Assembly (NCBI GenBank): GCA_016181345.1
Contig: JACOZM010000101.1
Location: forward strand, 1 to 12,128
Origin: Candidatus Woesearchaeota archaeon
Lineage (GTDB): Archaea > Nanobdellota > Nanobdellia > Woesearchaeales > GW2011-AR9
Length of the DNA: 12,128 bases
Reading direction: 5' to 3'
A model generated the notes under the pieces. That model did not search any database and had not been told where the DNA came from. It was given only the letters and a program-made list of their open reading frames with translations. Of the stretch, positions 8,368-12,128 are shown piece by piece. The position numbers were made by a program, and so were the translations under genes. The stretch's first letter is position 1. Each line of letters begins with the position of its first letter.

Positions 8368-8868
8368 ATGACATATTTAACTAGAATTATTGGTGGAGCT
8401 GCGCTATTGGCAGCATTAACTGCTTGTGGAATAAAACAGGAGCAGGTTAAAGTTTATGAACGTCCGGCTGATCCTCACGAGTGGCCTGCTTGGTTACAAT
8501 CGAATGATAAGCATTTTGTCTACGGGAACCTAGATCTAAGCAATGATAAGAGATATGGACAAGAAATCGAAAGATTTCCTCATGAGAAGGGTCCTTCTTC
8601 AGATAAGGCCGTCTTAATGTTAAGAGATGCAGCTGCGATTACCACTGGTGATTTACGAGTAAGCGCAGGACCAAATGAAAGAAGTTATACTCTTACAGGA
8701 AATGGGTATAATGGAGCTAATCCAGGACATCGTGAAGCTTGGGTAGAGATGTATGAGCTTGCTGATGCTAATGGTAATAAAGAAGTTTCTGATCCTGAAG
8801 CTAGAAATCTACTTGAAGCTATTCTAGACTCCCAATTAGAAGTTGCAGCAAAAGCAGGAAAAAAATAG
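8368..8868 (+). CDS. Secreted lipoprotein with one EF-hand-like calcium site
   Basis: A 166-aa exported protein. Residues 1-20 are a lipoprotein signal: a basic Arg at position 6, the hydrophobic core IIGGAALLAAL and the lipobox LTAC with Cys at 20, so the mature protein should be lipid-anchored outside the membrane. The mature domain is hydrophilic and contains D133-A-N-G-N-K-E-V-S-D-P-E144, which matches the EF-hand loop pattern with ligands at positions 1, 3, 5, 7, 9 and 12. It is followed by the helix ARNLLEAILDSQ and preceded by a helix ending EMYELA, giving helix-loop-helix geometry. Only one EF-hand is evident, and it may pair with another copy in a dimer. The remaining domain is not recognised. 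The start is set by the TATA box at 8338-8346; a T-rich terminator follows. Confidence 0.75.
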   Translation: MTYLTRIIGGAALLAALTACGIKQEQVKVYERPADPHEWPAWLQSNDKHFVYGNLDLSNDKRYGQEIERFPHEKGPSSDKAVLMLRDAAAITTGDLRVSAGPNERSYTLTGNGYNGANPGHREAWVEMYELADANGNKEVSDPEARNLLEAILDSQLEVAAKAGKK

Positions 8869-9770: not shown

Positions 9771-9851
9771 ATTAAAAATTCAGCGTCGTCACATTGTTCC
9801 CCCTTGCGTGGACATGAAGTACCCGAAGTATAACAGCATTAACTTTGTACC

Positions 9852-10677
9852 CTACTTCTTAATTACATAAAATATTTCGTTGCTGAATTTTAGCGTTTTA
9901 TAGGTGTATTTTAAGCGTGTGCACATTAACTCGATCCATTTTCGTTCAGGGAAATTCATTCCCTTTCCACTCATTGTTTTAGTAGAGAAGGAAACAACAA
10001 CATATTTTGCCGGAATTCTTTTGATTACTTCCTCGCTTACTTTGTGGCCTCGTCCTCGGTCTAGGACATCGGTCATCTTAAATAAAAAGCAGAGATCAAC
10101 AGAGTCATGCTTGGCTATCTCTTCCCAGGAAAAGGCATCTAAAACCTTAGCTACTCCCCAAAAACCATCATTTTTTTCTTCTAAAAATTGAAAGAATGTA
10201 TTTAATGAGTTTATTTCCTCTTTACTTAGATCATAGGCATAATAATTCAGTTTATTAAGGCCCATCAAAGGAATAGAAAATGGATTTAATCCGCATCCCA
10301 AATCCAGGATTGATGCTGGAACTTTGCTTATTTTGAATATCCTTGAATATAATTTAGCATAGAAATCTAATCGTTCTTTTGTTGAAGAATGGGTTTGCAG
10401 AATCTTTGCAATTATCTCGTTCAATAGTCGTCCGGTAAAGCCCGTAAACTCTACGCAACTGCTGGCGGACTTCTTTTAGGACTTTCTTATATAGAGATGA
10501 TTTAGGCTGGAAATTAGAATTTAGCTTAGAAACGAATTGATGGTTTTTCTGAAGATACTTAAACAACTCGTCACGGACAAAATCTTCATTAAGGTCTTGA
10601 AGTGTTTTTCGCTGAAGAATATCGTGGATCAATCCAGTTATCTTTGATTCGTCTAGGATTATTTTGCCGATTAACAT
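9852..10677 (-). pseudogene. 16S rRNA (guanine-N7) methyltransferase, ArmA/RmtB (FmrO) family homologue, one frameshift
   Basis: Homologue of the SAM-dependent enzymes that methylate N7 of G1405 in the decoding site of 16S rRNA and confer aminoglycoside resistance in bacteria. One extra base at about 10434 splits it. Repaired, VYGLY joins GRLLNEIIAKIL and the protein is 274 aa, close to ArmA/RmtB (about 250-257). It shows the family's helical N-terminal rRNA-binding domain with a basic helix (KEVRQQLRRVYGLY, 68-81), the HSSTKERL motif (96-103; LHASTKERL in RmtB), SAM motif I ILDLGCGLNPFSIP (123-136), FLFKMTDVLDRGRGH, SFSTKTMSGKGMNF (SFPTRSLGGRGKGM in RmtB) and an ending YVIKK as in RmtB. TATA TTTAAATA is at 10695-10702. 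As read, no full product is made. Its archaeal target is unproven. Confidence 0.8.
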
Positions 10678-10694
10678 TGTTTTCTTTAAACCCC

Positions 10695-10702
10695 TATTTA
10701 AA
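10695..10702 (-). promoter_or_regulatory. TATA box of the rRNA methyltransferase gene
   Basis: On the minus strand this reads TTTAAATAGG, centred about 22 bp before the ATG at 10677, and supports that start over the internal TTG start at 10424. Confidence 0.45.
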
Positions 10703-10853
10703 CTACTCTTTAAACACCTCAGATTATTTTCCGGTTTAATAGTCTTCTTTTTTTAATAATTCTCTTAACTATAAAAACCTAACTTTTTTAAATAGAGGAA
10801 GATTTATTCAAATTATCAGAGGGATAGTGACAGTATTCATTATAGGAGAGGAG

Positions 10854-10863
10854 TATAAAAATA
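10854..10863 (+). promoter_or_regulatory. TATA box of the signal peptidase gene
   Basis: TATAAAAATA centred about 34 bp before the ATG at 10892, giving a short leader of about 8 nt. The rest of the divergent gap (10703-10853) is A/T-rich with no other clear signal. Confidence 0.45.
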
Positions 10864-10891
10864 TCGCCAGAAAAGATGTGAGAGATTAGAA

Positions 10892-11356
10892 ATGAGAGAC
10901 AAATTAAAATATCATAGTAAAAGAGCATGGAATTTTTTTTGGAATGATGATTCTATAGGAAGTTGGATTGCCAATATCATCGTTGCTTTTGTTTTAATTC
11001 GATTTCTCCTTTATCCATTATTAGGAGTAATCCTGGGAACGGGTTTTCCAATTGTAGCAGTTGTTAGTGAAAGTATGGAACACGGACTTCATGAGGGAGT
11101 ATTATGCGGCCAGGAATTTATCGAATTCCCAGAATCTTTTGAAAATTACTGGAAAGTCTGCGGGCAATGGTATACAGAACAAGGGATAACTCCAGAAGAA
11201 TTTCAGAATTTTAAGTTTAAGAATGGGTTCAATAAGGGAGATGTCATTATCTTATGGAGAGCAAATCGCGACAATATTCAGTTAGGAGATATTTTAGTCT
11301 TTCAAGGCTCTAAACCACAACCTATTATCCATCGTGTTGTAAAGGTTTTTGAAGAA
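10892..11356 (+). CDS. Archaeal type I signal peptidase, truncated at an apparent chimeric junction
   Basis: Membrane-bound signal peptidase (peptidase family S26B, SEC11-like) that removes signal peptides from exported proteins. A hydrophobic membrane segment covers about 25-57. The nucleophile is S61 in VVSESMEH (SxSM motif), and the general-base His of the archaeal/ER type is H147 in IIHRVVKV. Between them are the expected strands GDVIILW (116-122) and LGDILVFQG (131-139), separated by a Cys-containing insert (C72, C90). The homology ends at about residue 155, right after HRVVKVFEEN. The third conserved motif (G-D-x-N with the catalytic Asp) and the C-terminal part are missing. From there the same frame continues into a bacterial lytic transglycosylase. 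As it stands the protease could not be active. Confidence 0.8.
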
Positions 11357-12128
11357 AACCACTTACCTACCGATCTTGCCTACTTAGCACTCATTGAGAG
11401 TGGTTATAACCCACATGCTTATTCAAGAGCAAAAGCAGTAGGAATATGGCAGTTTATGCAAGCAACTGGAAGACGTTATGGGCTTAAATCCAATTGGTGG
11501 ATCGATGAAAGAAGAGATCCTGTCAAATCAACAAAAGCCGCGGCCAATTATCTTAAAGACCTCTATCAAATATTTGGCTCTTGGTACTTAGCTGTAGCTG
11601 CTTACAACGCTGGAGAAGGGAAAATTCTTCGTTCTGTAAAAAAGCATAAAACAGATAATTTTTGGGAAATGGCTAAATATCGCCATCTTAAGAGGGAAAC
11701 AAAAGATTATATTCCAAAATTCATTGCTGCCATGCTTATTGCTAAAGATCCTGAAAAATATGGTTTTACCAATTTAAAATATCAAGAACCTATTTCCTAT
11801 GAAGAGGTGGCACTCACAAAACCAGTAGATCTCCATGAAGTAGCAAAAAGCATTGAAATATCTTATGAAGAGCTTAAAAAATTAAACCCCGAACTCAAAG
11901 GATTTTCTACTCCCTTGGATTTGGATCACTACACACTTAAAGTTCCAGAAAATAAAAAAGAAATTTTTCTTGTAGAGCTTGAAAGCATTCCGGCTCTTAA
12001 AAAGACAGATTTACATCAACATCAAGTAAGTTATGGAGATACCTTATGGGCTCTTTCTAGAACCTATGGGACAAGCATTCCGCAAATTAAAAAGATGAAT
12101 AATCTGACTTCAAATGTGCTCAGAATAG
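11357..12128 (+). CDS. mltD: Membrane-bound lytic murein transglycosylase D-like, catalytic domain plus LysM (partial at both ends)
   Basis: A bacterial peptidoglycan-cleaving enzyme (SLT family 1 fold). The frame opens abruptly with HLPTDLAYLALIESGYNP, whose Glu is the catalytic acid. It continues with AVGIWQFM, GLKSNWWIDERRDP, STKAAANYL and AVAAYNAGEGK, all signature MltD segments in the correct order. A degenerate LysM-like region (about 75-90 residues before the right edge) and a LysM domain starting HQHQVSYGDTLWALSRTYGT then run off the window at 12128. The N-terminal signal/lipobox and the region before the catalytic Glu are absent, replaced by archaeal signal peptidase in the same frame. 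Archaea of this kind have no murein, so this part most likely belongs to a co-assembled bacterium. Confidence 0.85.

Follow-up and report, generated by a model that had tools for sequence, protein, structure and literature searches.

Metagenomic contigs that combine the DNA of two organisms are rare in the experience of the authors of PMC7111523, according to the available portion of that article, and they typically lack paired-read support or show differing coverage or phylogenetic profiles. Lytic murein transglycosylases of Woesearchaeota are already in print (PMC9723730, in the part of that paper available to us). The other described systems closest to the locus reported here are the archaeal/ER-type signal peptidase I of Woesearchaeota and the MltD protein of a deltaproteobacterium, and the locus resembles each of them on one of its two sides.

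The window, that is, the whole stretch of DNA that was analyzed, is the entire 12,128-base contig G000:C137, which belongs to a genome bin of 902,592 bases in 146 contigs (68.39% complete). A single frame at positions 10892–12127 of the forward strand extends over 412 codons without a stop and continues past the contig end. Along this frame, an archaeal/ER-type signal peptidase passes into an MltD-like lytic transglycosylase, with the switch located within positions 11339–11360. The fused protein has no second match in the archaeal bin at E ≤ 0.001, and the GC content exhibits no clear step at the join. As in the chimeric metagenome contigs mentioned above, the phylogenetic signal differs on either side of the join and only a short overlap of the two parents is possible; unlike those contigs, the join in this case keeps one frame open, and consequently looks like a gene fusion. 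On the basis of the sequence comparisons described below, we have very little doubt that the fused frame would be an artificial join at the contig end, whatever its cause.

The signal peptidase part and its archaeal neighborhood

The 5΄ part of a signal peptidase gene, comprising codons 1–149, occupies positions 10892–11338 of the forward strand, and its 3΄ part is missing. Apart from the protein of the window itself, 112 others matched residues 1–156 at E ≤ 0.001 (best identity 72% among the matches listed), and several of these homologues bear the name signal peptidase I of Woesearchaeota. When the same residues were compared with Pfam, no family was found above the cut-off. At the level of genomes, peptidase matches were obtained in 88 of the 96 genomes searched, including the window's own, or in 87 of the 95 relatives; the best relative in this set of genomes was 73% identical across residues 4–155. 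Ser61 and His147, which we take to be catalytic, are both present in the fused frame, and His147 is kept in all 112 relatives. In these respects, the left part is the same as the archaeal/ER-type signal peptidase I of Woesearchaeota, and the identification that the initial annotation had proposed for residues 1 to about 155 is upheld by the homologues and by the two residues at the expected places.

The left part differs from this family in that the KGD(H/N)N-type motif and everything downstream of it are missing. A regular expression run over whole proteins detected KG[DEN][HN]N in 102 of the 112 relatives and did not detect it in the fused frame. Ten relatives are without the motif; we inspected six of them, and five of the six harbor near variants (e.g. 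LGDHN and KGDN). A search of the bin at E ≤ 1, in which the full-length relative P0002 served as the query, did not recover the continuation of the archaeal gene: the one strong match was to the window's own contig, accompanied by two weak places on contigs C72 and C118. Contig C72 (locus L112) contains a separate small signal-peptidase-like frame of 157 aa, which has SMDP, HRV and KGDNN motifs of its own.

A fusion of signal peptidase and MltD was observed in no other protein among the 113 listed, the window's own protein being the sole case. The other 112 homologues are 226–264 aa long, although the search admitted candidates of up to about 721 aa, and hence none of them is fused. Similarly, in a crude test of 232 proteins, 'HRVV' and 'ALIESG' occurred together only in the window's own protein.

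Two genes to the left of the peptidase gene were compared in the loci of 14 relatives, out of the 87 relatives with a match. The first, an FmrO/methyltransferase-like gene of 190 aa on the reverse strand (9852–10424; Pfam FmrO, 2.9e-21), produced tblastn matches in 12 of the 14 loci, and the second, a 107-aa frame on the reverse strand without a Pfam family (10354–10677), did so in 13 of the 14. This recurrence shows that the left part of the contig is in its usual archaeal neighborhood. In 12 of the 14 loci compared, the FmrO-like methyltransferase gene adjoins the signal peptidase gene. Further upstream, a 166-aa frame on the forward strand (8368–8868), which has no Pfam match, begins by eye like a bacterial lipoprotein (LTAC).

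The MltD part and its bacterial source

The right part of the contig (11339–12128, forward strand) is an internal piece of an MltD-like gene that encodes an SLT domain and an incomplete LysM domain. Residues 157–412 matched Pfam SLT (6.4e-32) and LysM (1.9e-11), and the latter domain is cut by the contig end at 35 of its 43 positions. These matches bear out the earlier observation that one frame passes from a signal peptidase to MltD. In the protein search with the right part, 7,570 of 8,000 scored candidates matched; the top protein besides the window's own among the 120 listed was P0114 (360 aa), which is 100% identical across all 256 residues. A separate search of each half, as had been suggested, led to the 112 homologues for the peptidase half and to a full-length parent, P0114, for the MltD half.

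A scan of contigs with the right part detected 94 relatives, and we retained the 80 best. The top-ranking locus (L002), at 100% identity, lies in JACPKQ010000024.1, a contig of 73,488 bases from a groundwater MAG, Deltaproteobacteria bacterium isolate NC_groundwater_499_Ag_S-0.1um_36_10. The next locus by E-value (L003) belongs to another deltaproteobacterial MAG and is 65% identical. In an ungapped DNA comparison with L002, 790 of 790 bases were identical from position 11339 to 12128, the last base of the window; on the left side of 11339, the identity dropped to the level of unrelated sequences. The 790-base match is co-linear and lies in the interior of the bacterial contig.

The intact MltD gene occupies positions 2746–3828 of L002 and encodes 360 aa with, by eye, a lipoprotein-like N-terminus. 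From the coordinates, residues 150–412 of the fused frame correspond to residues 79–341 of P0114, to which they are identical. The fused frame differs in that it lacks the first 78 residues of the intact protein, which by eye include a lipoprotein signal, and the last 19; the MltD piece is accordingly cut on both sides. The initial annotation had described both proteins as cut inside conserved domains; the KG[DEN][HN]N motif is indeed absent from the peptidase, and MltD is short on its N side.

We also compared the two genomes beyond the identical stretch. A search of the bacterial genome with positions 9850–12128 of the window, in which scoring covered 40 of the 72 first-look candidates, yielded the 790-base match and a second one of 41 bases (83% identity), to the right of the join (11504–11544). 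For positions 9850–11338 (1,489 bases), the 40 of 72 candidates scored contained no bacterial match at E ≤ 0.001; in the opposite direction, the 40 of 45 candidates scored in the archaeal bin contained none to the 5,978 bases by which L002 (6,768 bases) extends beyond the identical stretch.

These data also bear on the idea that the contig of the bacterial MAG is the chimera and that the MltD piece is archaeal, which we consider practically negligible. We found no point in its favor. The bacterial gene is intact within a contig of 73 kb, and relatives such as P0115–P0121 can be aligned to it both left and right of the join. In addition, its two upstream neighbors are common to another deltaproteobacterial MAG: in L003, matches to both neighbor genes and to MltD occur in the same order and at about the same places. 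The two neighbors recur in this one locus out of the 13 compared, and L004–L015 show only MltD, where L005, L010 and L013 each provide <1.2 kb of upstream sequence. The notion that the SLT part is the archaeon's own, which the SLT domains of relatives had suggested, was rejected on account of its exact identity to the bacterium and its weak likeness to the SLT protein on contig C66 of the bin.

A match of 790 bases that is co-linear and 100% identical, runs from the join to the contig end and falls in the interior of another organism's contig supports a misassembly through short homology, which the initial annotation had preferred. The switch that it placed at about 11360 is real, but this position is the right edge of the interval, since the DNA identity starts at 11339 (codon 150) and not at codon 156/157. 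Its caution against attributing the right part to the archaeon is sound, with the limit moved from about 11360 to 11339; the contig is to be trimmed at 11338.

The join and its probable cause

The join occupies positions 11339–11360 of the forward strand, and the switch between the parents would be somewhere inside this interval, which consists of the first 22 bases identical to L002. All 22 bases are owned by the bacterial parent. For the archaeal side, we counted the corresponding residues in the 112 relatives and found V150 in 108, K151 in 39, V152 in 18, E154 in 34, E155 in 49 and N156 in 25. Phe153, which is inside the possible overlap, was found in only two of the 112, tryptophan being the commonest residue at this place. 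The joining bases, earlier suggested to be plausible in both parents, are shown to be native only to the bacterial one; in the archaeal one they are plausible, with the reservation of the rare Phe153. The base matching position 11360 was read in 7 of the 14 relatives' loci (the other seven, which were minus-strand matches, were left out): six carry G and the seventh T, compared with C in both the window and the bacterium. This difference suggests that the archaeal parent probably diverges at 11360 at the latest. The overlap shared by both parents would be at most 22 bases, and 21 bases if the archaeal parent owns positions 11339–11359; the rarity of Phe153 indicates that it may be shorter than 21 bases, in which case it would be unfit for a k-mer join.

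The smallest k that MEGAHIT uses by default is 21. Under a simple composition model, in which 36% GC and independence were assumed for both genomes (0.9 and 1.7 Mb), the expected numbers are about 3.4 for shared 21-mers and 0.9 for shared 22-mers, so that chance openings for such joins exist. Within the window's own genome, the 21-base join sequence was found, with up to 2 mismatches allowed, exactly at the join itself and at one other place with 2 mismatches. An overlap of ≤22 bases would fit a misjoin through a short k-mer. We propose the following course: the contig would follow the Woesearchaeota signal peptidase gene into the stretch of at most 22 bases at 11339–11360 and would then run 790 bases through mltD from a co-occurring deltaproteobacterium, where it would stop. 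The trigger would be a k-mer of about 21 bases shared in the assembly graph, which we infer to be the likeliest cause, although it is not proved. For two coding regions on the same strand, the frame would be kept open across the join with odds of about 1/3, and the open frame should need no further explanation.

The two genomes appear to come from the same groundwater study. The name style of the bacterial MAG fits PMC7906910, which we regard as the apparent source study. As described there, each filter was assembled alone using MEGAHIT 1.2.9 with default parameters, and scaffolding was performed with IDBA-UD.

Scaffolding, or a DNA molecule or read that was already chimeric in the library, might also have produced the artificial join in place of a shared k-mer. 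Such an origin is one form of the artificial join, its probability being contained in that of the latter, and we consider it rather unlikely. The presence of Phe153 in only two archaeal relatives would be consistent with such an origin, as would the scaffolding step that the available part of PMC7906910 includes; however, much of 11339–11359 is plausible as coding sequence of the archaeal family, judged from the counts for V150, K151, E154, E155 and N156, and the join contains no Ns.

Lytic transglycosylase genes of the relatives and the question of a real fusion

Matches to the SLT family were obtained in 55 of the 96 genomes searched, including the window's own, and 54 were above the Pfam cut-off; among the relatives alone, 54 of 95 genomes had a match. 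Because such genes are present in over half of the relatives, in some cases on contigs of >200 kb, they seem to be native to this group, and an SLT gene in the host archaeon would not be absurd in itself. These counts, together with the frame that is open across the join, are what could be adduced for a very recent horizontal transfer, by which a fragment of a deltaproteobacterial mltD gene would have entered an archaeal signal peptidase gene and created a real in-frame fusion. However, the identity is 100% over 790 bases to an organism that is apparently of the same study, and the identical stretch starts inside a gene and ends at the contig end. The transfer would also have broken a peptidase gene that is matched in 87 of 95 relatives, and no second example was present among the 113 proteins listed. 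Moreover, the SLT protein that C66 of the bin encodes bears only a distant resemblance to the fused one (one 41-residue piece at 41% identity). We accordingly judge a transfer of this kind to be highly improbable, and slightly less credit still is due to its boldest form, in which a living Woesearchaeote would have captured mltD DNA of a neighboring deltaproteobacterium in its peptidase gene and thereby gained a membrane-anchored murein hydrolase.

Under the preferred reading of an artificial join, it is likely that no organism makes the fused protein, and the peptidase-MltD fusion is almost certainly no real feature and no gene. It has no weight as biology and matters as sequence hygiene: if the contig is left uncorrected, a DPANN archaeon will be credited with a bacterial MltD and with a new gene fusion. 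False examples are easily believed here, as real peptidoglycan-degrading genes are under discussion in this group, according to the accessible portion of PMC9723730.

Some minor observations concern SLT genes elsewhere. In the related genome G008, an SLT gene and a peptidase gene lie, by eye, about 1.7 kb apart in separate frames, which we read as incidental. In the window's own bin, contig C66 carries a frame with Peptidase_M15_4 (M15-type carboxypeptidase) and SLT domains (L109:498–2387), which adjoins a second M15-type frame (L109:1–543). This arrangement may represent either peptidoglycan-acting domains in the presumed archaeon or another mixed contig. Also on this contig are genes for an enolase and for a RelA/SpoT-like protein with HD, TGS and ACT domains.
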